A DNA stretch of 59,491 nt from a virus: IMG/VR virus record IMGVR_UViG_3300044691_000368, positions 1-59,491 of that record. One strand, 5' to 3'. The notes below the pieces were generated by a model, which was not told where the DNA came from, made no database searches, and worked only from the letters and a program-made list of their open reading frames with translations. The stretch's first letter is position 1, and every line of letters begins with the position of its first letter. The translations under genes and the position numbers were made by a program. Below, piece by piece: positions 2,937 to 50,159 of the stretch.

Positions 2937-3500
2937 GTGCCCAAACGAATTGAGAAGTCTACCGAGTACATCCGCCACACCTTCACGCCGGATGAGCGCC
3001 TGAAGATGGGCGACGAACTGGCGCAAGGCCACAACCGCATGGAAGACATTACCGATGAAGAGACGGTAATCAAGGCCCAACTCAAAGAGAAGAAGTCGCA
3101 GGTGGAGGCAACCGTATCGCGCCTGTCTCGCGAACTTGCCAACGGCTTCACCATGAAAAACGTGGAATGCCGTTTGGAGTGGGACAAGCCGAACGTCAAC
3201 GAAGTCTCCTACATCCGCATCGACACCGGAGATGTGATCAAAACGCGGGCATTCACGGAGGCAGAGCGCCAGCAGGATTTGCCGCTTGCTGGTGAAGTCG
3301 TGTTCGTTCCAGCGGATGAGTCTGAGGCGAACATCGCCAAACACTTCGGCTCGGTTGACGGAACGATTGCCATTGATGCCGCTGGTCCGGAAGATGCTGG
3401 CAACTCTGCGGTCGTCGATGCAGCGGAGGAGCGCACCTCAAAGAAGGACAAGGAAGCGAAGGCCGTCCGCGCTGCCACGATCAAACTCAGCAAACTGTAG
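2937..3500 (+). CDS. Phage protein of unknown function, coiled-coil N-terminal half
   Basis: A 187-residue protein starting at GTG with GGAGAA upstream. Residues 15-70 are strongly helical and charged (DELAQGHNRMEDITDEE), followed by a short beta-rich middle and a Lys/Ala-rich, probably disordered C-terminus. A hairpin terminator follows directly. Family not recognised. Confidence 0.7.
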   Translation: MPKRIEKSTEYIRHTFTPDERLKMGDELAQGHNRMEDITDEETVIKAQLKEKKSQVEATVSRLSRELANGFTMKNVECRLEWDKPNVNEVSYIRIDTGDVIKTRAFTEAERQQDLPLAGEVVFVPADESEANIAKHFGSVDGTIAIDAAGPEDAGNSAVVDAAEERTSKKDKEAKAVRAATIKLSKL

Positions 3501-3507
3501 CTCACCC

Positions 3508-3545
3508 TGGCGGCGGGTCCAATCCACTCGCCGCCACCAATTTTA
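3508..3545 (+). terminator. Intrinsic terminator
   Basis: An 11-base stem with one mismatch (arms 3508-3518 and 3526-3536, loop 3519-3525) is followed by an AATTTTA tract. It sits eight bases after the stop at 3500, so it probably ends or attenuates the operon before the next gene at 3559. Confidence 0.55.
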
Positions 3546-3558
3546 GAAAGAAGATTTC

Positions 3559-4005
3559 ATGACCACTTTGGAAGAGGCCGTAGAAGCTGGCAGGACGCTA
3601 GGTAAAAAGGCTTTGTATTTCGGATGCTGGGATTCGGCGGGACATTATTTGCACGATGTCAGAGGTAGTACGGTCTGGAAGAATCATGGATGGCCCAGTG
3701 ATCTTCCGTGGGATGAATCCATCATGGATGGAACACTTCTCAACAATGGGAAAGTGCCAGACATTCCTTCCGGGAAGGTTTATTGGACGAGCGGAGGGCG
3801 CGACGCATTTTGGTACGCCTTCTACTGGTGGGACCGCTCAGTTGATAAGCGCGGCGCGTGCAACTCCGGTTTCTATGTCCGAGGTTTCGGATACCCAGAG
3901 GCTCAAGATGCTTTTGACTGGGCCTGCTCTCAATTCCCTCATGTTGTCGAAAGGCAAAAGCACCCACTCGTACTACAAAATGCCGTGAGGGGCTCAAGTA
4001 AATGA
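3559..4005 (+). CDS. Phage protein of unknown function, Trp/Tyr-rich
   Basis: A 148-residue protein rich in aromatic residues (YFGCWDSAGHYLHD, FWYAFYWWDRS), with AGAAAGAAG before the ATG. Its end overlaps the helicase start by four bases (ATGA), so it is probably co-expressed with replication functions. Family not recognised. Confidence 0.7.
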   Translation: MTTLEEAVEAGRTLGKKALYFGCWDSAGHYLHDVRGSTVWKNHGWPSDLPWDESIMDGTLLNNGKVPDIPSGKVYWTSGGRDAFWYAFYWWDRSVDKRGACNSGFYVRGFGYPEAQDAFDWACSQFPHVVERQKHPLVLQNAVRGSSK

Positions 4006-5405
4006 ATGCTGCCCCCGAGCTAAACCGCCCCACATCCATCCATGCTGAGATAACGATCCTTGGGGCCATGCTGGTGGCACCGGAGAGCGTGCAGGATGCC
4101 CTCGACCTCCTGGTGGCAAGCGACTTTTCTCTTGACAGTCACCGGCGCATCTTTGCCGCGATGGAGCGCCTAGCGAAGCTCTCACAGCCCATCGACATCG
4201 TAACCCTCACGGATGAGTTGAAGCGGAAGAAGGAACTCGACTCCGTTGGGGGCCTGTCCTATATCGCTTCCCTAAGTGAAGGTCTTCCTCGAAAGCTCAG
4301 CATTGAAAGCTACGTCCGCATCGTGCGAGACAAGTCACGGGCGCGGTCGCTCATCAATCTGGCAGAGAGAGCAGCAGAAGAGGCGAGCGACGGGCAGGAA
4401 GAGGCCCAGGTCGTCATCGAACGGGCTATCGAAGACTTCCGTGAGTTGGCAGAGCAGCACCCCGACACGGACATGGAGAGCGTCGGCACCTACCTCGCCA
4501 CCCAGGGGGACGACTCAGAGGCACTGGAGGCCATGGCGACCACTGGCGGCCTGATGCTGGGCTGGACACAGTGGGATGACGTGACAGGGGGACTGCAGCC
4601 GGGGGAGTTGATCGTACTGGCAGCCATGGCAAGTTCTGGCAAGACGGCGTGGGCCTGCAATGCCGTCTATTACACGTCGGTCGTCCTCGGAAAGGTTACC
4701 GCCTACTTCCCTCTTGAGGATGGCCGGGGAGCCGCCGTTCGAAGAATGATCTCCGCAGCCACCGAGGTAGACCACCGCGCCATCCGAGACGGGAACCTTG
4801 GCCCACGCGACCAGTCTCTCATTCTGGAGTGCCGCGCCCAGCTCGCAGCAGCCCCGCTGTACCTCGATGAGACGCCAGAGATGACCATGACGCGCATCAA
4901 GGCGAAGTGCGCCAAACTGAAGCGCCAGAAGCTTGCCGAAGGCCATCCCACCGGCCTCGACTTTGTAGTTATCGACCAGTTGAGCCACACCGAAAACACG
5001 GACGTCTACGAGAGGGGCGTCAATCCAGAGGAGATAATCGGCCGTCAGGCGAAAGCAGCGAAGAAGATGGCCAAAGAACTAGGCGTCCCAGTCGTTTTGC
5101 TTGTCCAGTTGACGCAGGAGGCGGCGAAGCGTACCGACCCAACCCCGAAGATTACGGACATTGCAGGGTCAGGGAAGGTGAAGAATCACGCGGACATCGT
5201 GGCATTCCTGCACCGGCCGGAACTCTTCGACAAGTCCGACGAGGCACTCAAGGGCCAGGGTCACATGATCTTCGCGAAGAATCGGCAGGGCGAGACGAAG
5301 ACCTGCATCTGCACCTACAAGGGGCGCATCCTGAAATGGGAGGACGACACCCCGCCGAGGGCGAAGCAATCATCCTTCGATGCCTACCACGAGGTATACC
5401 GGTGA
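4002..5405 (+). CDS. Replicative DNA helicase, DnaB-like
   Basis: A 467-residue DnaB-family helicase. It has an N-terminal helical domain (about 1-115, starting with IHAEITILGAML), a linker, and a RecA-like motor. The motor carries Walker A AMASSGKT (208-215), Walker B FVVIDQLSH (321-329) and a Gln-rich motif VVLLVQLTQEA. The Walker A lacks the usual RPSMGKT proline and methionine but keeps GKT. The length is normal for the family. It would unwind the phage replication fork. The replication proteins at 42345-43671 lie on the opposite arm and could be its loader or initiator partners. Confidence 0.9.
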   Translation: MNAAPELNRPTSIHAEITILGAMLVAPESVQDALDLLVASDFSLDSHRRIFAAMERLAKLSQPIDIVTLTDELKRKKELDSVGGLSYIASLSEGLPRKLSIESYVRIVRDKSRARSLINLAERAAEEASDGQEEAQVVIERAIEDFRELAEQHPDTDMESVGTYLATQGDDSEALEAMATTGGLMLGWTQWDDVTGGLQPGELIVLAAMASSGKTAWACNAVYYTSVVLGKVTAYFPLEDGRGAAVRRMISAATEVDHRAIRDGNLGPRDQSLILECRAQLAAAPLYLDETPEMTMTRIKAKCAKLKRQKLAEGHPTGLDFVVIDQLSHTENTDVYERGVNPEEIIGRQAKAAKKMAKELGVPVVLLVQLTQEAAKRTDPTPKITDIAGSGKVKNHADIVAFLHRPELFDKSDEALKGQGHMIFAKNRQGETKTCICTYKGRILKWEDDTPPRAKQSSFDAYHEVYR

Positions 5406-5461
5406 AATAAAACCTCCTGGGTTAGTGGTACTGTAGCGGAGCGAGAAAGTGAGGAGAATAA

Positions 5462-5536
5462 GTGACGAATCGTTTTCGAGGTAGGCGGTCCGTTCCAGTC
5501 GATGCCGGGTGTTTTCAAAAGTCGCCTAATTTATAG
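5462..5536 (+). CDS. Possible 24-residue basic peptide
   Basis: A GTG with a strong upstream GAGGAG opens a 24-codon frame rich in Arg. It lies in the 215-base gap between the helicase and the gene at 5621. The good ribosome site is the only argument for it. Confidence 0.25.
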   Translation: MTNRFRGRRSVPVDAGCFQKSPNL

Positions 5537-5620
5537 AGCATGGTGGTTGTGGTTTGCCATTGCATTGCTTCGCGTTCCCTTCGACGAGTTCTGTCTAACC
5601 GAAAAGGACTGGAGAGCCAA

Positions 5621-6016
5621 ATGAACCTTGCTGACGAACAACTGGTAGCAGCATCGAAGGCGATGTTTGCATCGAGCCCACAATCAAAGCAATGGCGGGA
5701 GATCGGAAGCCTTGAGAAGCAAATTTACCTCAGCCAGGCCCTTGCCGCCGCTCCCTTCCTGCAGATGCCGTGGGATGAGCCGACAAGAAAGGAGGCGACG
5801 GAATGCTGGCAAGAGACCAAGCATATTAACCCAGTGGGAGTGGCGGTACAAGCGCAAATGGTTGTGTTCGTGCGTCGCCGCAACGCCTCCCTCATCCCCA
5901 AGCCGGTAGACCCAAGGCGGGAGAAAATTCTAGGCGCGATGAGAGATTCGCGACTGGCCATCATCCGCGAATTGCTGGCCGACCGCATCCTCGCCGCTCT
6001 GGACGCAAAGGAGTAG
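5621..6016 (+). CDS. Phage protein of unknown function, helical
   Basis: A 131-residue protein. The open frame extends left to 5540, but ATG 5621 has GGAGAG correctly placed and the upstream residues look non-coding. It is predominantly helical with a central hydrophobic VAVQAQMVVFV segment that may be buried. Family not recognised. Confidence 0.65.
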   Translation: MNLADEQLVAASKAMFASSPQSKQWREIGSLEKQIYLSQALAAAPFLQMPWDEPTRKEATECWQETKHINPVGVAVQAQMVVFVRRRNASLIPKPVDPRREKILGAMRDSRLAIIRELLADRILAALDAKE

Positions 6017-8971: not shown

Positions 8972-9463
8972 TCACTCGGAACTCGTCTTGACATTGGTCT
9001 CCCCCGGCATAAAAACATCTGAATGAGCGTGCAGGATTGCAATGCACTCAGCGCCGCGCGTTGGTCCCGTCGACCATGTGCGCGAGACCTGAGTTAGAAA
9101 ATCTTCCGGGTTGGTTGCGACAAGAGCGGCGGCATAGTGCGGGTAGTGCGGTGCCAGCGCTCGCAAAGTGTTCATGCGATCGGCAAAGCAATCCGCCATC
9201 GTTGGATATTTCACAAAGTCATCATGCTGCACGACCCACTTACCGTTGAGGAATTCCTTTGTCGGGAGGTTCACTGTGCCGAAGATTGGGTGCTGATGCT
9301 GCTTCATGCCGAAGCCGTTCCAATCCTCGCGGAAGAGTTGGGATGTTCCCCACGTGGTCTCCACCATCACTTCGCAGGCCTGCGCTTGAGGGAAGAGGCA
9401 ACCGGACTGTTGCGCTGACGCGTAGACCTGCGCCAGCGCTGCTATCTGCTGTGGGCTTGCCAT
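8972..9463 (-). CDS. Endolysin, glucosaminidase domain
   Basis: A 163-residue protein matching the FlgJ/glucosaminidase family: QACEVMVETTWGTSQL with the likely catalytic Glu35, NGFGMK, and FVKYPTMADCFADRMNTL. It would cleave the glycan strand of peptidoglycan during lysis. No signal peptide is visible, so it would need a holin. ATG 9463 has GAGG upstream; the frame is open to 9526, giving an alternative 184-residue form. Confidence 0.85.
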   Translation of the reverse strand: MASPQQIAALAQVYASAQQSGCLFPQAQACEVMVETTWGTSQLFREDWNGFGMKQHQHPIFGTVNLPTKEFLNGKWVVQHDDFVKYPTMADCFADRMNTLRALAPHYPHYAAALVATNPEDFLTQVSRTWSTGPTRGAECIAILHAHSDVFMPGETNVKTSSE

Positions 9464-9590
9464 GAGTTGTCCTCTTATTTGGTGGTAGTCTGTGGGTGCG
9501 GCGGCGTAATTCGGGAGTCTCGACACGGACTTGACTGACGCCAGTGCGGAGCAGGCACGTAAACCATGCCACCGCCGCGAGTGTTCAGAT

Positions 9591-9608
9591 AGGCTCCTTC
9601 GGGAGCCT
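9591..9608. terminator. Hairpin with UUCG-type loop between fibre and lysis genes
   Basis: A perfect seven-base stem AGGCTCC/GGAGCCT around TTCG lies just beyond the stop at 9622. The T-rich tract (TTTTCTGTTG) follows it on the plus strand, while on the minus strand the following bases are TATCTG. It may partly terminate the minus-strand transcript before the endolysin gene, or act on plus-strand transcripts. Confidence 0.45.
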
Positions 9609-9621
9609 TTTCTGTTGTCCC

Positions 9622-12120
9622 TTATTTACAGGTCCAAACGACTGTGGAACCCGATGCCGCAGGCGTGCAGGTGAAGGTTTTGGTGAAGGTGAAGGCCTTC
9701 GGCAGCACGACAGGCGCGGTCACCAAAAGCGATGCTGACCCGGTTGCGCTGGTGAAATGGACGGTATCGGTTGGAGTGAAGGCAACGGATAGATTCGCCG
9801 TTCCGGCCGTCGCCATCACCGTCCCCAGCGCGGGCGTGTAGACAAACGTTCCAGGCGTCGATGCAGTGGCGTTCATCTGGGTCGAAGAGAGCGCCGTTCC
9901 AGAGACGATCGAGGCCGGGTTGCTCCATGTGATCGTTGGGGCGACTGGAACCGGTGGGGGCGGTGGAGGTGCTGTTCCGGCAAGAGCGGGCACCGTCACC
10001 GTAGACGTAACTCCATTGCTGACCATCTTCACCGTCTGGACACTGGCTACCTGCTGGATCTCAAGCTGCTTCATGACGCCAGGGCAGGGGTCTGATCCAG
10101 CCCATGCCGTTCCCACTGCTATGGTCGTTGCGGTAATCGTCACCGAAGGCAACCAGCATGCAGGGGAAGGTTGGCCCGCAACGCAGCTCATGAAACTAGC
10201 CAGGCATGTCGACGCGTCCTGCCCGTAGCGCACGGTGGCTGTGGATGTGAACGTCACTACACTGCCGTCAACAATCTGCGGTGTAGCAAAAAACCATGTC
10301 GAGGTGGGTGGCGGAGGTGGAGGCGGTGGGGGTGGCGGCTGGGCGGTCGAAGACGCAACCTCAACGGCTCCAATTGTCGGTGAGGGAGATCGGGCCGCGC
10401 CGTAGTAGTCGACCGACAGCGAAGGCAAGGGCACGCCCGCGCCAATCAGCGGAGATCCGGATGCCGGGTTGAAATTGAAGGCGTCGAGGTCCGACTCCGC
10501 CGAGAACGGCGATGCGGGCTGGCCCGCGAGCTGAGGAGAGACGCAGACTTCCCCCACGCCTGTAGGGCAAGGCCCGTTGATGTTGTAGTAAAGATTGTGG
10601 TCAGAGCTGATCGCCAGGGTTGCATCGCTGGCTGTGTAGTAGGGCGTGGGGAGATGACTGCTGTAGTTGCTGTCAAAGTATCCGAGGAACACGTTGTCGG
10701 TGAACGTGATCGGAACGCCAGTACAGTTATTTGGTTCCCCGCATCCGAAATCTATAGCAACGTTAGACACACCCATGATCGTGTTTCCAGCGAATAGGTT
10801 CGTAGAACCTGCATCAGTCTGGACGTTGAAGGCATCGCCCGACGCACGGCAAGCGGCGGAAAGAAATGCACCCGGATTGTTGGAGCCCATCCAGAAGCTT
10901 GAAACTGCGCCGGGAAGGGCTTGGGACTGACGGAAGCAATTATTGCCTGCGTAGTTGTTTGTGAAGATGACCGTCGCGCCGGTGGTAGTGTTCCATTTCC
11001 ACTGCTGGCCCATGTTGCCGTACGACGTTGACTGAGTGATGGTCAGGTTCTTGATCTTGGTGTGCGGCCCGATGAACCCGTCTTTGGTATTCCAGTGAAA
11101 ATCACAATGGTTGCAGGTCAGCGCGTCCAGTTCGGTATCCTGTCCGCTGAGAGCATCGCCGAATCCACCGCTGGAGAGGTCGTAGCACGAGGCGGCGGGA
11201 AAGGCCGTATGCACGATGGGGTACTCTTCGTTGCACCCGTTCCCGACCATCGTCAGGTAATTCAGCGTGAGCGACGAGCCAGGCCCGTCGGGCGTGTCCA
11301 CTCCATTGTCAAAGTTCCATCCGGCGAAGGCGTTGAAGTTCGATATCACGCGGGTGAGCGTTACAGGCCCTCCGATGGGACCGGAAAACCCGGCACCCAC
11401 CAGGCCGTGCACATAGACATCCTGGAACAGGACATTCGATGTGCCGGTGCCGGTCTGGATTCCGTTTGAAGCGAAGTCATCAAGGGGCGCGTTGGTGGCA
11501 CATCCGCTGGGGTAAGCGTTAGCGCCCCCGGACTTGGTGCAACTCGAATGATCGGTAACCTTGATGCACTGGAAATCAACATAGGGCGATCCCATGCTGA
11601 CGACACTACCAACCGCGAATCCGCCGAAGATCTCGGTCATGGCGGAGAGGTTCGGCACGTTGCCCGTACTGCACGCGGCGAAGTGCTCGCCGAGGATGCG
11701 GGTGTGTCCCGCCGCCGTGCCAGAAGGTGGATTAGGTGCCCCCGATGCATAAGGGTTCCCCGCGATGCCGAAGCACCCGCCAGTACCGCAAGAGTTAGTA
11801 TTGGTGGCCCAGCCGACTCTCCATGGCCCACCGCGAATGATAACGGTGTCTCCGCCTGCAATTACCCAACCCCATCCTGGGAAGGTCGTGCTGTCCGTGT
11901 AGGAGCCATCCTGCCAGAGATAGCGCACATCGCCGAAGGCGCAGCGCTGCTTCGGCGCGGTCCCGACCGGGGCCGAGTCGCCCTTGCCATCGCACAAGCC
12001 GGTGGTGACGTTGGTGGAGTAGCGCGTGCCTCCGTCCGGACGCACGTAGTACGTAGTTTGCGCGAAGGCGGGCAGGCACAGGCAGGCCAGAGCCGCGACG
12101 AAACAGGCTGTCTTTTTCAC
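9622..12120 (-). CDS. Large secreted beta-helix protein with Pro-rich linker and Ig-like C-terminus
   Basis: An 832-residue protein with a clear Sec signal peptide (MKKTACFVAALACLCLPAFAQ). Residues about 25-590 look like a right-handed parallel beta-helix (repeated NxxF/NN turns, as in pectate-lyase-like and tail-spike folds) with many Cys residues. An 11-proline linker follows, then a middle beta domain, a second Pro run, and a C-terminal Ig-like module (YTPALGTVMATAGTANLSV, PTDTVHF) of the type abundant in acidobacterial exported proteins. A signal peptide is unexpected for a virion protein. It lies between the fibre genes and lysis genes and is bounded by a hairpin. It may be a moron secreted by the host cell, or a spike with an N-terminal hydrophobic segment. 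Confidence 0.7.
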   Translation of the reverse strand: MKKTACFVAALACLCLPAFAQTTYYVRPDGGTRYSTNVTTGLCDGKGDSAPVGTAPKQRCAFGDVRYLWQDGSYTDSTTFPGWGWVIAGGDTVIIRGGPWRVGWATNTNSCGTGGCFGIAGNPYASGAPNPPSGTAAGHTRILGEHFAACSTGNVPNLSAMTEIFGGFAVGSVVSMGSPYVDFQCIKVTDHSSCTKSGGANAYPSGCATNAPLDDFASNGIQTGTGTSNVLFQDVYVHGLVGAGFSGPIGGPVTLTRVISNFNAFAGWNFDNGVDTPDGPGSSLTLNYLTMVGNGCNEEYPIVHTAFPAASCYDLSSGGFGDALSGQDTELDALTCNHCDFHWNTKDGFIGPHTKIKNLTITQSTSYGNMGQQWKWNTTTGATVIFTNNYAGNNCFRQSQALPGAVSSFWMGSNNPGAFLSAACRASGDAFNVQTDAGSTNLFAGNTIMGVSNVAIDFGCGEPNNCTGVPITFTDNVFLGYFDSNYSSHLPTPYYTASDATLAISSDHNLYYNINGPCPTGVGEVCVSPQLAGQPASPFSAESDLDAFNFNPASGSPLIGAGVPLPSLSVDYYGAARSPSPTIGAVEVASSTAQPPPPPPPPPPPTSTWFFATPQIVDGSVVTFTSTATVRYGQDASTCLASFMSCVAGQPSPACWLPSVTITATTIAVGTAWAGSDPCPGVMKQLEIQQVASVQTVKMVSNGVTSTVTVPALAGTAPPPPPPVPVAPTITWSNPASIVSGTALSSTQMNATASTPGTFVYTPALGTVMATAGTANLSVAFTPTDTVHFTSATGSASLLVTAPVVLPKAFTFTKTFTCTPAASGSTVVWTCK

Positions 12121-27421: not shown

Positions 27422-27759
27422 TGGTTCAGCCCCAGTGCAAGGCAGTTCAAGACGAGAATGACGTTGCGCTCGCCAGGATTCTCGACGGTCTGGATGATGT
27501 ACAGGCCGTTGAGCGACTGAAGTTGCATGCTCGAAAGGATGCCAGTCTGCCAGCGAATCTTTACCGTAAAAAATAGTTGCGCCGTATCCTGCCCTGACCT
27601 CAGCACCTCTAAGCTCCGCACCGGATCGATCTGCGCCCACGTGTCGACGAACGGCACCCATGCGGTGGCAGTGCCGGAGACGTCCGTTACCGTCGCCTGC
27701 TGCAATATCCTCACCCGGTGGATCATCTTGCCGGGGTCGAGCTGCGGCCATGAGGACAT
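27418..27759 (-). CDS. Head closure / head-tail joining protein
   Basis: A 113-residue protein of the SPP1 gp16/phage head-tail joining type: MIHRVRILQQATVTD, VPFVDTWAQIDPVRSLEVLRSGQD and the final VILVLNC. It closes the portal after packaging. Position between the connector and the gp10-like gene is the usual one. Confidence 0.8.
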   Translation of the reverse strand: MSSWPQLDPGKMIHRVRILQQATVTDVSGTATAWVPFVDTWAQIDPVRSLEVLRSGQDTAQLFFTVKIRWQTGILSSMQLQSLNGLYIIQTVENPGERNVILVLNCLALGLNQ

Positions 27760-28463
27760 TACCGCGCCCTCGTCAGCGCGCCGTAGGTGAGGCAGGACGT
27801 CACAGTGTAGGGGTATTCCTGCGCCGGTCCCGCACCCTTTTCAAACGGCAACCGGTTGTTGTACCAGGCCGAGATGAGCAGCAGCATTCCATTCTTGATG
27901 CGCGCTCCCGGGCCGTTCCAGAATGGATCAGTGTTCGAATAGCCGCTGGTGAAGCGCAACAGGATCGATGACGATGGCCATGGTGTGAAGATTGGCCAGG
28001 TTTCGTTGTAGGGCGGCGCGACGATGGCCGGCTGCTTCGCGACGTCCACGATGTAATCAGTATTCTCCACCATCGTTGTGAGCGCGCCGTTCGAGTCTTT
28101 GTATCGCAGGAGATCGACAGAGATCGTGGGCGTGCGCATCTCCAGCCGATAGAGCGGCCAGTAATCCATGCTCAGGTCCCATTGCTTGCGGACGAGATCG
28201 CGATTCTGCAAAATCTCCGCCTGCTCCCGCGCGCCCGAGATGTACATTTCGATCTGCATGTCTTCGAAGGAGTCTGCCGGTGAGCGCGCCGGTATTTTCA
28301 GATAGTCTTTGACGAGGTTGACGTCCAACGGTTCGACGAAGGATTGCTGCGGCGAAGCGTCGGTGAGATTGAGGCTGCCGTAGGCGACAAGCGCGCCGTA
28401 CAATCCGAGATTGCCGTAAGTTCCGTAGGGGCCCACCCCGCCAAATGGAAACCAGCTGCTCAT
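27759..28463 (-). CDS. Head-tail connector (gp6/gp8-like adaptor)
   Basis: A 234-residue protein. The core (VNLVKDYLKIPARSPADSFEDMQIEMYISGAREQAEILQNRDL) is the adaptor signature that forms a ring under the portal. It has a Gly/Tyr-rich N-terminal extension (about 1-40) and an unusually long beta insertion after it. Overlaps both neighbours by 1-4 bases. Confidence 0.8.
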   Translation of the reverse strand: MSSWFPFGGVGPYGTYGNLGLYGALVAYGSLNLTDASPQQSFVEPLDVNLVKDYLKIPARSPADSFEDMQIEMYISGAREQAEILQNRDLVRKQWDLSMDYWPLYRLEMRTPTISVDLLRYKDSNGALTTMVENTDYIVDVAKQPAIVAPPYNETWPIFTPWPSSSILLRFTSGYSNTDPFWNGPGARIKNGMLLLISAWYNNRLPFEKGAGPAQEYPYTVTSCLTYGALTRAR

Positions 28464-28579
28464 AGGTACGCCGCCTCTACGAGTCCGATTGCAAGCACGA
28501 TTATGGTGCCAAGAAAGAGACAGCCAACGATGATGGCTAGCGCCTCCAAGATGTCCGTAGGCCTATTCCACTTGCTCAT
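28460..28579 (-). CDS. 39-residue membrane protein between adaptor and glycosyltransferases
   Basis: Starts at ATG 28579, overlapping the upstream stop, and ends in ATGA overlap with the adaptor gene. One hydrophobic helix (ALAIIVGCLFLGTIIVLAIG) fills most of it. The tight four-base overlaps on both sides support it as a real gene. It might anchor the glycosyltransferases, but that is speculation. Confidence 0.6.
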   Translation of the reverse strand: MSKWNRPTDILEALAIIVGCLFLGTIIVLAIGLVEAAYL

Positions 28580-29292
28580 AGCGGCTGCACCTCAAGCGGT
28601 CCAGCCCAGCGGAACGAGGAATTTGCCGGAAAGATATCGCCTACTACCATATGTTTGTAGTGGTCTTCGAGCGTGTTGTTCGGGTCTATTTTGTTGTACC
28701 AGTGGTATTTGCGCACGCGGTCCTCTTTGTACAGGTAGCCGTAATGCAGGAGTCGCACTGGCAAGGGCTTGATCTGGTCGAGTAACTGAGCAGGTGCCGA
28801 TGAGCAATGAAAGTTTCCGCCGTTCGCCGTGCGCATGAAAGTCAAGTTGCGTGCGGTGAGTTGAAAGATCGACGGCCGCCGGAACTCTTTGTACCAGCGG
28901 TCCACTCTGATTTGGTCCTCTTTATCCCAGAGGTAGACGATGTGCATTGAACCGCACACGATGCCATCCGCTATGGCCTTTTGGAGCGCGGGGACATCGC
29001 GCGAGTCAAGCTCCTCATCTCCGTCCAGGCATAGAACGTGATCACCTACCTGCGCGCCAGCGGCCCAGACCTGCTGTAGCAGCCAGTCTTTGTCTTGCCC
29101 CTCATGAATGAACCCGCGCGCGGAGAATGGCGTCGGCAGAACTGTCGCGCCGTGCGCCGCCGCGACCTCTCGCGTGTCGTCCGTGGAATCGTCGTCCATC
29201 ACCAGAATCTGAGAGCACACAGGCTTGAGCGAGTCGATCACACGCCCGATCCAGCGGCCCTCATTCTTCACGCGCAACATTCCGTAGGTCAT
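28576..29292 (-). CDS. Glycosyltransferase, GT-A fold, family-2-like (1 of 4)
   Basis: A 238-residue protein from ATG 29292, overlapping the upstream stop (TGATG). Motifs: RVKNEGRWIGRVIDSL, QILVMDDDSTDDT (nucleotide-sugar binding) and LCLDGDEELD (DxD-like metal site). The C-terminal YGYLYKEDRVRKYHWYNKID resembles family-2 enzymes that modify glycans. No membrane helix, so cytoplasmic. Sugar donor and acceptor cannot be read from sequence. Confidence 0.8.
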   Translation of the reverse strand: MTYGMLRVKNEGRWIGRVIDSLKPVCSQILVMDDDSTDDTREVAAAHGATVLPTPFSARGFIHEGQDKDWLLQQVWAAGAQVGDHVLCLDGDEELDSRDVPALQKAIADGIVCGSMHIVYLWDKEDQIRVDRWYKEFRRPSIFQLTARNLTFMRTANGGNFHCSSAPAQLLDQIKPLPVRLLHYGYLYKEDRVRKYHWYNKIDPNNTLEDHYKHMVVGDIFPANSSFRWAGPLEVQPL

Positions 29293-29846
29293 CAGTTGTG
29301 CATCCAGAGATACCCTGGCGCTTTGGTATGGGTGGCGCCGGTTTTGATGAGAGCTTCGATGAGCCATGCGTCGGCAGCGCGGTCCAAGCCTGCAGGACCG
29401 GCAAAGCCTGTAAACTTCTCGCGCTTGAGCAGGAATCCGCCCTTGTCGATTTGTCCACTGACGGGGGCTACATCCATCGGCGCGTAATGAATGCCGTGTC
29501 CGTCGTAGATGCAGTCGCAATAAATCAGATCAGCGTCCCAGCCTGCGAGCATCGTCTGTAAAAAGCGCGGTCCATAATATCCGTCGTCACTCGGGAAGCT
29601 CAGATATTCGCCGGTCGCCATGCTCGCGCCATAGTTCGCAGACAGGTAGCAGTCTGGCAATCTGGTATTGAAGTAACAGAAACGCGGGTCGTTCATCTCC
29701 TGCACGATGGCCTGGTTATGGAAATCCGTGGAGTTATCCGTCACCAGCACCTCGAAATCTGGCTCGCTCTGAACTTGCAGGGACCGCAACAGGCAGGCTA
29801 GATGCAGAGGCCGGTCAAATGCGGAGACGACAAAGGAGCACTTCAC
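29292..29846 (-). CDS. Glycosyltransferase family-2-like (2 of 4)
   Basis: A 184-residue protein from GTG 29846, overlapping the upstream stop (GTGA). It has the GT-A opening KCSFVVSAFDRPLHLACLLRSLQ, LVTDNSTDF, and YLSFPSDDGYYG at the expected metal-binding site. It is shorter than typical family-2 enzymes, ending soon after the GT-A core. Confidence 0.75.
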   Translation of the reverse strand: MKCSFVVSAFDRPLHLACLLRSLQVQSEPDFEVLVTDNSTDFHNQAIVQEMNDPRFCYFNTRLPDCYLSANYGASMATGEYLSFPSDDGYYGPRFLQTMLAGWDADLIYCDCIYDGHGIHYAPMDVAPVSGQIDKGGFLLKREKFTGFAGPAGLDRAADAWLIEALIKTGATHTKAPGYLWMHN

Positions 29847-30505
29847 GCGCTCATGCCCCACTTCTGGCAAAAGAGGCTCCAATTGCGCGCATAAGAGCGG
29901 GAAGCGGTTGGCTCACCACGGAAAGTGCTCTTGAGTTGCGAGTGGTCTACGAAGCAATGATCATAGACGCCGCATTTGAGACCCATGCGCCTAACAGCTT
30001 CGCAGTAGTCCCGGTCCTCCACTCCGTAGTCGAGGCAGTAACGTTCGTCGAGCAGGCCGACCGCGTTGATGGTGCGGCGCGGAATCAGTACGCAGACGAA
30101 AGCGAAGTGCTCAACCTCGCGCAATCCGATGCCTTGGGGCTGCTGCAAGGGTTGGCCGGTTACGTTCGTTACAGCTCCGATGATGCCGAACTCGGGATGC
30201 TCTTGCGCCTGCCTCTGCATGGCAGTGAATCCGTCTGGAGTCCGCAACAGCGCGTCATCGTTGAGCAGGATTACGTCGTTGTCCCCGGCGCAGGCCATGC
30301 CAATGTTGCAATTGCGGGCATAGATGAAGGGCGTCTCGACCTCGCGCACGCGGTAGTCAGGCGTCGGTGGTAGCCATTCGTTGCCGTTGCTGCGGTCCCA
30401 TGCCACAATCGTGTCAACGCTCTCTTCATGGCGTGCGACGGCTTCGGCGCATGGCGTCAGATTCGAGAGTGTGCGGCTGGGGATGATGACAGATAGATTA
30501 TTCAT
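29843..30505 (-). CDS. Glycosyltransferase family-2-like (3 of 4)
   Basis: A 220-residue protein: NLSVIIPSRTLSNLTPCAEAV, IVAWDRSNG, ARNCNIGMACAGDNDVILLNDDALL (metal site) and DYGVEDRDYCEAVRRMGLKCGV, the catalytic ED-containing segment of family-2 enzymes. Complete GT-A core, no membrane span. Confidence 0.85.
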   Translation of the reverse strand: MNNLSVIIPSRTLSNLTPCAEAVARHEESVDTIVAWDRSNGNEWLPPTPDYRVREVETPFIYARNCNIGMACAGDNDVILLNDDALLRTPDGFTAMQRQAQEHPEFGIIGAVTNVTGQPLQQPQGIGLREVEHFAFVCVLIPRRTINAVGLLDERYCLDYGVEDRDYCEAVRRMGLKCGVYDHCFVDHSQLKSTFRGEPTASRSYARNWSLFCQKWGMSA

Positions 30506-31097
30506 TCAATGGTTTCCAGTTGTCGCCCATGCAGCGCGGGCTTGTGTTGCCGGGGTGAATCGTTGCGTGCATCAACTCGCCTGCATCGACGCTGACGAGC
30601 TGCTGGGCTGCGCTTGCAGCCGCGACGAAGATGTTGTCCTCGCCGATGTTCTTTGCTTCGAACTGATGCGACTGCCACCACTCCCGCCGATAGCAGAGCG
30701 AGGTGCCGAGCGCGTAGTTCCTTGTGCCTTCGTACTTCCACCACGTTTTGCCATCCGTGAACCGCATCGAATGGAAGCCGACGACAGAACGCTTGCTCTC
30801 GTTGAGCATGTCGACCTGACACGCGAGGCGCCCTGGGCCGCTCCAGTCGTCGTCGTCCCAATGGCAGACGACCTCGCCGATAGCCTGAGTGCAGCCAAAG
30901 TTGCGCTTCTCTCCAATGTTGCGCTGCTCGGCCAGGTGGATGATGCGGATTCGCTCATCGGCCGGAACGAGATCCTTGACGTCCTCCCCGTCTGCGAGAA
31001 TCAGGAGTTCCGCCCGGGGGTACGTCTGTTGCTGGAAGCACCGGATAGATTCTGGTAACCACTTTCTCCTGTTCCGTGTGAGACACAAGCACGTCAC
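30498..31097 (-). CDS. Glycosyltransferase family-2-like (4 of 4)
   Basis: A 199-residue protein starting at GTG 31097: MTCLCLTRNRRKWLPESIRCFQQQ, AELLILADGED, RNIGEKRNFGCTQAIGEVVCHWDDDDW (DxD) and NIGEDNIFV near the catalytic base position. It overlaps the preceding small gene by 143 bases in another frame, so its true start could be slightly downstream, but the conserved N-terminal TCLCLTRN argues for this one. Confidence 0.8.
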   Translation of the reverse strand: MTCLCLTRNRRKWLPESIRCFQQQTYPRAELLILADGEDVKDLVPADERIRIIHLAEQRNIGEKRNFGCTQAIGEVVCHWDDDDWSGPGRLACQVDMLNESKRSVVGFHSMRFTDGKTWWKYEGTRNYALGTSLCYRREWWQSHQFEAKNIGEDNIFVAAASAAQQLVSVDAGELMHATIHPGNTSPRCMGDNWKPLNE

Positions 31098-31293
31098 GAA
31101 ACGGTTGCCGCGCGCTCACCTCGGGAGCTTCCGGGACGATGATCTTGGTTTGATATTCAATGCGTGGCGGCAAGGCGCGCACCATCCCTTTTTCACGCAA
31201 TGCTTCGACGATGTCATCAGGGCACTCAAACTCCTGATTCTGAGCCACAGTCCCGTACTCGCCAATCAGTTGGCGGTTTGCGATTACTCTCAT
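30955..31293 (-). CDS. Small head-region protein (long overlap with glycosyltransferase)
   Basis: A 112-residue frame from ATG 31293, overlapping the upstream stop (ATGA). The first 65 residues (RVIANRQLIGEYG, FECPDDIVEALREKGMV) resemble small phage proteins encoded near capsid genes. The last 47 are Arg/Gly/Pro-rich and coincide with the glycosyltransferase start, so the C-terminus may be read-through text or a former frameshift. Confidence 0.55.
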   Translation of the reverse strand: MRVIANRQLIGEYGTVAQNQEFECPDDIVEALREKGMVRALPPRIEYQTKIIVPEAPEVSARQPFRDVLVSHTEQEKVVTRIYPVLPATDVPPGGTPDSRRRGGRQGSRSGR

Positions 31294-31466
31294 GCGACGA
31301 CTTCTCGGATGAGCATCCCGGGAGCATGAATCAATACGGCGACGGTGCACGCGGATATGTCGTCTTTTTTTCTGAACCTCGTTCGACCATCCTCGGTGAG
31401 CATCTCATCTGCTTCGATAATTAACGGATTGCTAAGCGAATCGCGGAATACTTGAAATTTTGCCAT
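31290..31466 (-). CDS. Small protein downstream of major capsid gene
   Basis: A 58-residue protein from ATG 31466, the first gene after the capsid terminator hairpin. It ends in ATGA overlap with the next gene. Mixed alpha/beta composition (KFQVFRDSLSNPLIIEAD, CTVAVLIHAPGMLIREVVA). Family not recognised; coupling to the next gene supports it. Confidence 0.55.
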   Translation of the reverse strand: MAKFQVFRDSLSNPLIIEADEMLTEDGRTRFRKKDDISACTVAVLIHAPGMLIREVVA

Positions 31467-31553: not shown

Positions 31554-32777
31554 TTAGGAGAAGGTTCCCGTGATGAAGGCTTCTGCCCGGCGGACTGCCA
31601 TGCCGATACGCTCTTCACACAGAATCGTCGCCAGGTTGGAGGTGAAGTTCGAGGCATGCTCCCATGAGATTTCGATCATGGCTTCCATGCGATCGATCAA
31701 CTCTGCGCCGACGCCGAAGGAGCCGACAAGGAACGTTCCGGAGGTGATCGAATCGCTCTCGACCACCGGCAGGCCCCAGAGCAGCTTGACCACTGGACCA
31801 GTCCGAGGATCGCCGATGATGTAGACGCCTTTATTCGCGCCTCCCTCTTCGGTCTTGATCAGCTCGATCTTCTCCATGTCCACCGGATTGAGAACAAAGC
31901 CGTCCGGCGCGAAGGTGCCCAACCCGGCCAGGCGCGCCTGCAGTTTCGCATGGCGCAACTGATCGAGACGCTGATCACTCGCGACGTTCGCCCCGGTGTT
32001 GTAGGCAGTGGCTTGATGAAGCAGCCCATTGAGATGCTGCCCGGTTCCATCACCGGAGAGAATCTCGCCCTCTTCCTTGAGTTTCAAGCCATACATCAGC
32101 TCACCGTTGATCGTGCCCTGCATCCATGGAATGTCGTCCAGGGCCTGCCGGGATGCGTTCACGAAGTGAGCAATGGTCTTGACAGTGTCGCTTGCCGAGG
32201 TCCACGTGTAGGTTGACTCGCCCTTGAGCGTTCCTTCCACCTGGGGCGAGGCGTTGTTGGTTCGCCCATTCTGCTTCACGTAGTCGAACGAGTTGCCGGT
32301 GGTCATCGTCCGGACAGTCATCAGATCGCGGATGCGAAGTTCCTGCATCGGCAAACCGGTGATGCCGGGAAGGCGGAAAGGCATTTGCACGCCGGTCGTG
32401 CCAGTCCCCACGCCTACAGTGGTGATGACCGACTTGCGCGAGAATAGCTGAGGAATCGCGACGCGAACCCGGCCATCCTTGCCACGCAGACTGAGGAATC
32501 CGTTGCTCTTCTGAGCCTTGATCTCGTCCGACTCAACGAATACTTCACCGACGCTCTTCTCCTGGTGACCTTCGCCAGTGAATCGAGCCTCGTTCAGCTT
32601 CAGGTCGATGGCGTCGGCCTGCTTCTGGATCTCGTCAATCTTTCCCTTGATGCCTTCGAGCGCGGTCTTTGTTTCGGTTGTAGACGTGCCGAGCGTCTTG
32701 AACTCCTCATCGGCCCGAGCGATGAACTTCTTCTGCTCGGTAACTAGTTCTGCTAGCTGGATTTCTTGGGTTTCCAT
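31554..32777 (-). CDS. Major capsid protein, HK97 fold
   Basis: A 407-residue protein. Residues 1-100 form a charged coiled coil like the HK97 delta (scaffold) domain, which is normally removed by the protease encoded just upstream. The rest has HK97-fold signatures: GTGTTGVQMPFRLPGI, LKLKEEGEILSGDGTGQHLNGLL and LLWGLPVVESDSITSGTFLVGSF. AAGGAGAG precedes the ATG, and the gene overlaps the protease gene by 25 bases. Confidence 0.92.
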   Translation of the reverse strand: METQEIQLAELVTEQKKFIARADEEFKTLGTSTTETKTALEGIKGKIDEIQKQADAIDLKLNEARFTGEGHQEKSVGEVFVESDEIKAQKSNGFLSLRGKDGRVRVAIPQLFSRKSVITTVGVGTGTTGVQMPFRLPGITGLPMQELRIRDLMTVRTMTTGNSFDYVKQNGRTNNASPQVEGTLKGESTYTWTSASDTVKTIAHFVNASRQALDDIPWMQGTINGELMYGLKLKEEGEILSGDGTGQHLNGLLHQATAYNTGANVASDQRLDQLRHAKLQARLAGLGTFAPDGFVLNPVDMEKIELIKTEEGGANKGVYIIGDPRTGPVVKLLWGLPVVESDSITSGTFLVGSFGVGAELIDRMEAMIEISWEHASNFTSNLATILCEERIGMAVRRAEAFITGTFS

Positions 32778-48914: not shown

Positions 48915-50159
48915 GTGTCCACATCTCGCTATCAACTCGGCTCGCTAGAGAAGCGTAAGTCTGCGCAGGGATTGACTTGGTACCTGCGCTTCCACCAGAC
49001 GGAGGGCGAAGCTGTCCAACGTCCTCGGGTAAGAGTCGGGCTGGTCGCTGAGTTTTCCACAAAGGCCGAACTGAACCGCGCCCTTGAGAAGGCCAGACGT
49101 GAATTCAACACGCCGGAAGCCGACAAGCCCAAGCCTGTCGCGCTATTCCGCCACCTCGTCGAGCAGTACGAGTTGAAGGAGATGCCGGAGCGCTACTCCA
49201 CCTCGCAGAGCTATCAGTCCATGGTGCGGGTGCACATCCTTCCGAAGTGGGGCCACATGCCTGTAGCCGAGGTCAGGCCGGGCGCCGTGAAGGATTGGCT
49301 GTTGGGCCTGCATACCGTCCCGCGCAAGCCGCATCATGCTTCGCGGCCGCTGGCGCCCAAGACTATAGGGCATGTTCGGGGGCTGATGAGCGTGCTGTTT
49401 CGCTATGCGATGCTGCACGACTACATCCCGGCGGCAGTGAATCCCATGACGCTCTTCCCGTTATCCACGGCGCGATTGAAAGAGCCTCGCATCCTGACCG
49501 TTGTCGAGTTCAAGAATGTCGTCATCGAACTGACCACGGAGCCATTCCGCACCATGGTCATCACCGCCGGATGCCTGGGCCTCAGTTGCTCTGAGCTTAT
49601 CGGCATCCGATGGGAGGATGTGGACTGGATCGGCAAGAAGGATGGACCCGCTGTCAGTATTCGCACCGGCGTGGTCAATGGACGGGTCGGGGGAGTCAAG
49701 AACAAGTTCCGCAAGAAGCCCCTGCCCCTACACCTGATCCTCGTCAAGGTGCTGCAGTCTCACTTCCAGAGTTCCGAGTTCCGCAGGCCGGATGACTGGG
49801 TCTTTGCCAGCCCCCATGCCGTCGGCGAGAGCCCGTACAATCCCGGCGACGTTCTGAAAAAGTACATCCGCCCCGCTGCGATCGATATGGAAATCAAGCG
49901 CATGAAGGCCGAGAAGGGTAACTCCCACCTCACCTCAGCGGAATACGCCCACGCCATCGCCCTCGGCAAAGAGATCGGCTGGCACACGTTCCGGCATTCC
50001 TACCGGGCCTGGCTGGGCGATAGCGGAGCCAAGATGGAGATCCAGCGCGATCTCATGCGCCATTCAAACATCAGCACCGCAATAGACACCTACGGGGGAA
50101 CCTTCCCCGAAGGGCTGAGAGAAGCGAACGCTAAAGTCGTGGAAGGATTGCTGCAGTGA
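48915..50159 (+). CDS. Tyrosine recombinase integrase
   Basis: A 414-residue integrase starting at GTG with GGGAG upstream. It has an N-terminal arm-binding region, a SAM-like core-binding domain (about 75-185) and a catalytic domain. Visible catalytic residues are a Lys in the KFRKK turn, His357 and Arg360 in HTFRHSY, His383 in RHSN and Tyr393 in DTYGG. The position of the first catalytic Arg (usual GLRxSE) reads GLSCSE, Ser224. If correct this would impair or alter catalysis. It sits directly before attP. Confidence 0.9.
   Translation: MSTSRYQLGSLEKRKSAQGLTWYLRFHQTEGEAVQRPRVRVGLVAEFSTKAELNRALEKARREFNTPEADKPKPVALFRHLVEQYELKEMPERYSTSQSYQSMVRVHILPKWGHMPVAEVRPGAVKDWLLGLHTVPRKPHHASRPLAPKTIGHVRGLMSVLFRYAMLHDYIPAAVNPMTLFPLSTARLKEPRILTVVEFKNVVIELTTEPFRTMVITAGCLGLSCSELIGIRWEDVDWIGKKDGPAVSIRTGVVNGRVGGVKNKFRKKPLPLHLILVKVLQSHFQSSEFRRPDDWVFASPHAVGESPYNPGDVLKKYIRPAAIDMEIKRMKAEKGNSHLTSAEYAHAIALGKEIGWHTFRHSYRAWLGDSGAKMEIQRDLMRHSNISTAIDTYGGTFPEGLREANAKVVEGLLQ

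Follow-up and report, generated by a model that had tools for sequence, protein, structure and literature searches.

A glycosyltransferase cassette in the head operon of a tailed phage: a likely locus for virion glycosylation

The DNA analysed here, called the window, is the 59,491-bp IMG/VR virus record IMGVR_UViG_3300044691_000368, and positions refer to the whole record. A cassette of four predicted glycosyltransferase genes occupies 28576-31097. All of its genes are on the minus strand, and they are read in the order GTd, GTc, GTb, GTa. The cassette lies within a longer minus-strand run in which the terminase, portal, protease and capsid genes come first, followed by two small genes, the four glycosyltransferase genes, a gene for a short peptide and the connector gene. 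From the capsid onwards the features are:

31554-32777, minus strand: HK97-fold major capsid protein (PF05065, 5e-44)
31290-31466, minus strand: 58-residue open reading frame between the capsid gene and the 112-residue gene, overlapping the latter by 4 nt
30955-31293, minus strand: small head-operon protein of 112 residues; precedes the cassette and is a conserved marker of the insertion point
30498-31097, minus strand: GTd, predicted GT2/GT-A glycosyltransferase of 199 residues with the motif WDDDDW and a GTG start; first cassette gene and probably its anchored member
29843-30505, minus strand: GTc, predicted GT-A glycosyltransferase of 220 residues with an NDD motif and a C-terminal ED motif (YGVEDRDY); mosaic
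29292-29846, minus strand: GTb, predicted GT2 glycosyltransferase of 184 residues with an SDD motif
28576-29292, minus strand: GTa, predicted GT2 glycosyltransferase of 238 residues with the motif DGDE; last cassette enzyme, adjoining the connector gene
28460-28579, minus strand: one-helix membrane peptide of 39 residues (maximum 19-residue hydropathy 2.9)
27759-28463, minus strand: head-tail connector, adaptor Ad1-like (PHROG 40 connector, 2e-8); downstream border of the cassette

GTd and GTc overlap by 8 nt, GTc and GTb by 4 nt, and GTb and GTa by 1 nt, which agrees with the overlaps of 1-8 bases given in an earlier sequence-only reading. Several flanking genes overlap too, and the frame of the 39-residue peptide shares 4 nt with GTa and 4 nt with the connector gene. 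The same reading had placed the cassette between capsid and connector, where the family matches listed above now frame it on both sides. Protease, portal and terminase lie on the capsid side, according to a Pfam search. The connector carries a Tyr/Gly-rich N-terminal extension.

The 58- and 112-residue genes, which separate the capsid gene from GTd, were absent from that reading, as was the strand. A family search with the 58-residue frame gave no match. Of the 43 viral loci that a first scan, with GTd only, returned, about 20 have a tblastn match (41-75%) to the 112-residue protein, which also matches PHROG 2616 weakly. Its frame overlaps GTd by 143 nt out of frame, and a similar overlap recurs in relatives. 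The frame of GTd, which has a GTG start in the window, also begins with Val in the relatives L009, L013, L014, L017, L018 and L021.

All four genes are predicted to encode soluble GT-A glycosyltransferases. For GTa and GTb, this assignment is based on Pfam and PDB profiles; for GTc and GTd, it is based on AF2 models. The GT2 family PF00535 matches GTd at 7e-16, GTb at 3e-10 and GTa at 1.3e-8. GTc has no match in the Pfam search, and its fold was settled by its AF2 model, a single GT-A domain (pLDDT 89.7). The GTd model also has the GT-A fold (pLDDT 94.1), so that structure prediction, which had been suggested as a check, came out in favour of the assignment for both enzymes that were modelled. 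Pfam, AF2 and the coordinates agree with the original description of four distinct GT-A enzymes in a coupled run inside the head operon.

The metal-binding motifs reported at first sight (DGD, SDD, NDD and DDDD) are present, and their acidic residues are invariant in all four alignments: D81-D84 of GTd in 29 sequences, D83 and D84 of GTc in 26, D87 and D88 of GTb in 6, and D90, D92 and E93 of GTa in 22. None of the four enzymes has a transmembrane segment (maximum 19-residue hydropathy 1.55), and a search of the cassette run for a flippase-like open reading frame found none.

Structural neighbours can give some idea of what these enzymes resemble. Foldseek places GTd near SpsA, heparosan synthase and GalT1 and, among viral models, near a Che8 glycosyltransferase. 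The GTb profile matches SpsA (1.8e-8). The neighbours of GTc are WrtF and the polypeptide GalNAc-transferases, and its fold matches share 11-17% identity. Alignment of GTc with GalNAc-T2 by VIA-align gives Z 20.2 and rmsd 2.8 over 210 aligned residues, but other GT-A families score within about 1-2 Z, so that this likeness is not specific. GTc was not assigned to the polypeptide GalNAc-transferases (GT27), as the protein has 220 residues in a single domain and lacks the C-terminal ricin-type lectin domain.

The best PDB match of the GTa profile is GmaR (8e-11), followed by 7msk and the SunS peptide glycosyltransferases (2e-5 to 1e-4). The alignment behind this profile (A3) combines GTa with GTa2, a variant of the last enzyme, which may blur the result; a profile of GTa only again ranks GmaR first (5.5e-4). 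With a GTa2 profile, no solved relative was found. GmaR is a flagellin O-GlcNAc transferase, and the best solved relatives of GTa, as judged from these profiles, appear to be enzymes that act on proteins or peptides, which does not fix the acceptor of GTa. The likenesses to GmaR, SunS and GalNAc-T are at the level of fold or superfamily, and donor and acceptor cannot be named from them.

All four enzymes are under purifying selection. By the NG86 method, with part of the dS values saturated, GTd has a dN/dS of 0.12-0.16, GTb one of 0.11-0.21 and GTc one of 0.14-0.22; in comparisons of GTa with near relatives the value is 0.04-0.05.

Relatives of the cassette are numerous. Scans with the GTc and GTa profiles added loci to those of the first scan (the best 80 of 196 and the best 80 of 104, respectively). 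One scan used the connector as the query, and the glycosyltransferase searches took no account of gene context. When loci with identical glycosyltransferase sequence were merged, an approximate procedure, at least 129 distinct viral contigs were obtained, of which 115 have one or more virion genes of the type seen in the window inside the fetched stretch. A search for the cassette beside HK97-type capsids, proposed with the first reading, is therefore strongly positive. Since the fetched viral stretches are 4-14 kb long, structural genes are expected in them fairly often by chance, and conserved gene order is stronger evidence than the mere proximity of virion genes.

The order is well conserved in this set of contigs. 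GTd precedes GTc in 88 of 88 contigs and GTa in 71 of 72, and GTc precedes GTa in 77 of 81. Among the contigs listed, the first gene that could be recognised beyond GTa or its variant is the connector in 40 of 81 cases and head closure in 18 of 81. The gene preceding GTd is the 112-residue gene in 39 of 78. The loci L002-L021, that is 20 of the 43 from the first scan, have the cassette after the capsid or 112-residue gene and, where the sequence reaches far enough, before the connector. Many distant relatives place it elsewhere in the structural region, for instance after the connector (11 of 78 contigs listed). GTb is confined to L002-L005, L015 and a few more, all of them close relatives. 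The cassette is well beyond what chance would produce: dN/dS lies between 0.04 and 0.22, the Pfam E-values of three genes are low, and dozens of contigs repeat the gene order.

The 39-residue membrane peptide that the sequence-only reading had put at the end of the cassette does exist. A search of every short plus-strand frame in the fetched loci found no counterpart, however, and for this reason the peptide is probably incidental and not part of the glycosylation system.

Named phages give little help, because tblastn of each glycosyltransferase against 50,697 annotated phage records returned weak and mostly partial matches. One relative (L045) lies on a bacterial scaffold of the acidobacterium KBS 96, which carries the cassette as a prophage. 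The window itself has a tyrosine recombinase at 48915-50159 (weak NCBIfam matches), and its phage is probably temperate. The known host link is this one acidobacterial genome with the cassette, and the window's own host may differ.

Five types of cassette can be distinguished among these phages. The window has the type GTd-GTc-(GTb)-GTa. Two others are GTd-c28-FkbM-c36-GTa2 and GTd-c28-FkbM-GTa2, the latter including the KBS 96 prophage. Finally, more distant phages have the types GTd-methyltransferase-GTc-...-DegT-TOD1-GTa and GTd-methyltransferase-GTc-RmlD-...-GTa. Among the contigs listed, 87 have a defined interval, and this contains a methyltransferase in 37, a TOD1/MUCI70 glycosyltransferase in 19, a DegT aminotransferase in 14, an RmlD/epimerase-methyltransferase in 11 and FkbM in others. 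The PIG-L, YdjC, UDP-sugar dehydrogenase and WbqC families occur in one or two cases each in these 87 contigs. By family assignment, the middle-gene content of the relatives is that of glycan biosynthesis.

The middle and the start of the cassette appear to differ in how they are inherited. On common contig sets, the Spearman correlation of distances with those of the portal is 0.79 for GTd, 0.59 for GTa and 0.18-0.28 for GTc. The pairs behind these coefficients are not independent, and no significance test is attached; even so, the neighbouring genes differ strongly. The window's GTc is also a mosaic, with residues 1-55 being 91% identical to L004 and residues 111-220 71-88% identical to L014, L016 and L017.

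Capsid type and cassette type assort independently. The window's capsid type is otherwise found in L002 (99%) and L018 (63%), and its identity to the capsids of other cassette phages is 34-44%. L003-L005 share the window's cassette (glycosyltransferases 67-93% identical) with capsids of 37-38% identity, and L018 combines the window's capsid type with a different cassette. It follows that the capsid need not be the sole acceptor, and this independent assortment weakens the idea of an enzyme set that is specific for the capsid only.

GTd tracks the portal, GTc hardly does so, and capsid type is independent of cassette type. For these reasons GTd is probably the operon-anchored, vertically inherited enzyme and the first to act, and the remaining enzymes would diversify the glycan. 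GTa was considered as the initiating enzyme on the strength of its likeness to GmaR and SunS. GTd is the favoured candidate, since all cassette types seen begin with it and since it follows the portal; the resemblance of GTa stays a competing hint.

Taken together, these observations make it likely that the cassette is expressed late and glycosylates the virion of a tailed phage, which is probably temperate and has an acidobacterial prophage among its relatives. The gene order suggests that it is read together with the late head genes. The four soluble enzymes would then take nucleotide-sugars from the cytoplasm of the host during infection and build a short glycan on at least one virion protein, the presumed acceptor, during its synthesis. 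GTd most likely attaches the first sugar, and GTc, GTb and GTa may lengthen or branch the chain. In other phages, methyltransferases, aminotransferases, epimerases and further glycosyltransferases take the place of the middle genes, and the coat glycan would therefore vary between phages although the operon is left intact. Phages that bear the cassette thus probably decorate their own virions with sugar chains that vary.

Alternatively, the enzymes may modify the surface of the infected or lysogenic host (LPS, capsule or S-layer glycans), for example as a block to superinfection in the manner of gtr. This is unlikely, although it has the best standing among the alternatives. O-antigen loci typically contain GT2 enzymes, DegT, RmlD and methyltransferases, and the phages are probably temperate, as the recombinase and the KBS 96 prophage suggest. 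Bacterial O-antigen and exopolysaccharide loci also share with the cassettes their fixed ends and their variable content of glycosyltransferase, DegT, RmlD and methyltransferase genes, and NCBIfam relatives of the glycosyltransferases include TuaG, EpsE and WcaA, all far below cut-off. However, no genes for a lipid carrier, flippase or polymerase were recognised among the cassette genes scanned, and the window cassette lies inside a virion operon. The gtr seroconversion cassette consists of the GtrA flippase, the membrane-anchored GtrB and a multi-membrane transferase, whereas the cassette in the window has no such membrane parts. A lipid-linked glycan of the host surface is disfavoured since the four enzymes lack membrane segments and the run lacks a flippase. 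In addition, the genes overlap within the structural run and do not form a separate transcription unit.

Next in rank, and rather improbable, is that a single minor component of the virion is glycosylated, for instance the connector with its N-terminal extension or else a tail protein, which would serve assembly or genome gating and not a coat on the particle. The cassette borders the connector, and the extension of that protein (MSSWYPFGGVGPYGTYGNLGLYGALVxYGSLNLT) is nearly invariant in many phages with the cassette at this position; capsid types, for their part, are freely swapped. Distant cassette phages lack the extension, however (L022-L024, L027, L029, L033 and L036), and for this reason it is kept as a minor alternative only. 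The distances of GTa and of the connector also correlate modestly (0.44).

Phage glycosyltransferases that act on DNA bases and on host proteins exist in general, but counter-defence of either kind is very improbable here. The cassette lies in the head operon and not with replication genes, and its closest folds are polysaccharide and polypeptide transferases, whereas DNA glucosyltransferases, T4 beta-GT among them, have the GT-B fold. Least probable of all are non-functional passenger genes in a recombination hotspot: the middle region is often rearranged and some relatives have endonuclease-like insertions, but the dN/dS values refute this in the main, the catalytic residues are invariant, and the order is kept in nearly every contig that has GTd with GTc or GTa.

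The preferred reading, glycosylation of the phage's own particle, has precedents. The first description had called a four-gene cassette among structural genes unusual, which is too strong, because cluster O mycobacteriophages carry one between portal and protease and an embedded glycan cassette in a structural operon is thus already known. Corndog has the O-methyltransferase gp35, the glycosyltransferases gp36 and gp37 and the N-acetylglucosaminyltransferase gp38 in this interval, and peptides of the cluster O capsid were missing, for which the authors proposed glycan modification (PMC4351075). Firecracker, also of cluster O, is annotated with the same arrangement, one O-methyltransferase gene plus three for glycosyltransferases. 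Later reports of virion glycosylation concern Che8, Corndog and Myrna, as cited in PMC12363180 and PMC11256854; the former mentions capsid glycosylation for Corndog and Che8. The Corndog-type locus resembles that of the window in having four short glycan-assembly genes embedded in the head operon. It differs in its slot (portal/protease versus capsid/connector) and in its methyltransferase, which the window lacks, while the window's relatives exchange their middle genes. Profiles of the window's glycosyltransferases gave no match at E 0.1 to the proteins of Firecracker, which represented cluster O in this comparison.

Two further phages have comparable genes. The GTd profile matches gp108 of Che8 (locus L055, 7998-9347) at 5e-7, in line with the fold match. 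Che8 has three glycosyltransferases in a row (gp108-gp110) and virion glycosylation is reported for it in PMC11256854, but these genes lie at the far end of the genome, outside the head operon. In the mangrove soil phage GX15bay (MK557849), a run of glycosyltransferases with a methyltransferase is found near the terminase, and one of them matches the GTa profile at 1e-21; this glycan island lies upstream of the terminase, however, and has another gene set. The GmaR- and SunS-type protein and peptide glycosyltransferases, the best solved relatives of the GTa profile, are similar at superfamily level only. New in the present case are the slot between capsid and connector, the host group (one acidobacterial genome), the wide spread of the cassette and the exchange of its middle genes.

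In the literature cited here, virion glycosylation by phage enzymes is reported for only a few mycobacteriophages. If the preferred reading is true, it would be common in environmental phages, given over a hundred contigs, most of them from metagenomes, and it would be organised as an exchangeable cassette that evolves separately from the capsid. A broader view, held more tentatively and with somewhat less than even confidence, is that a widespread group of environmental tailed phages carries within the head operon a glycan locus of serotype-like character, in which GTd is inherited with the portal and the extension and modifying genes are freely exchanged; related particles could then show different coat glycans, and different capsids could share one. 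KBS 96 is a cultured host whose prophage (L045) bears the cassette, which makes the hypothesis testable. Finally, work on viral metagenomes often classes GT2-type genes as auxiliary, with a role in carbon use, as was done for 19 of 21 such genes in one study (PMC11924767). If virion glycosylation is the role of the cassette, many of the GT2 genes in viral metagenomes may decorate virions and not serve carbon use.

The capsid gene is exchanged as one unit. The window capsid is 99% identical to that of locus L002 and 63% identical to that of L018, both loci of other contigs with relatives of the glycosyltransferase cassette. Against the capsids of other close relatives identity is 34-44%, although their nearby genes reach 93%. 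The features concerned are:

31554-32777 (-), the exchanged capsid gene
30955-31097 (-), out-of-frame overlap of 143 nt between the 112-aa gene and GTd, the first cassette gene
27759-28463 (-), head-tail connector with a Tyr/Gly-rich N-terminal extension
48915-50159, tyrosine-recombinase integrase (weak NCBIfam matches, XerD-type)

The connector extension (MSSWYPFGGVGPYGTYGNLGLYGALVxYGSLNLT) is strongly conserved in many phages that carry the cassette between the capsid or 112-aa gene and the connector (loci L002-L021 and L060-L071). More distant connectors lack it. Relatives also keep a similar overlap of the 112-aa gene with GTd, of roughly 80-140 nt.

Cassette content can differ. A minimal cassette (L068:3355-4893) has GTd alone, flanked by the 112-aa gene on one side and the connector on the other, which suggests that GTd can act without the other cassette enzymes. 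In L088, a TIR-domain protein (3272-4270; PF13676, 1e-30) lies between GTc and GTa, and is possibly a defence gene carried along. Other cassettes contain a radical SAM/SPASM enzyme (L220:2156-3247) or a collagen-repeat protein (L112:8207-9085).

In L003, stretches that by their sequence look like HNH endonucleases are inserted at the cassette borders, one at each (5065-5805 and 9364-9945). Such insertions may provide a route for cassette exchange. Finally, because it encodes the integrase, the window phage is probably temperate.
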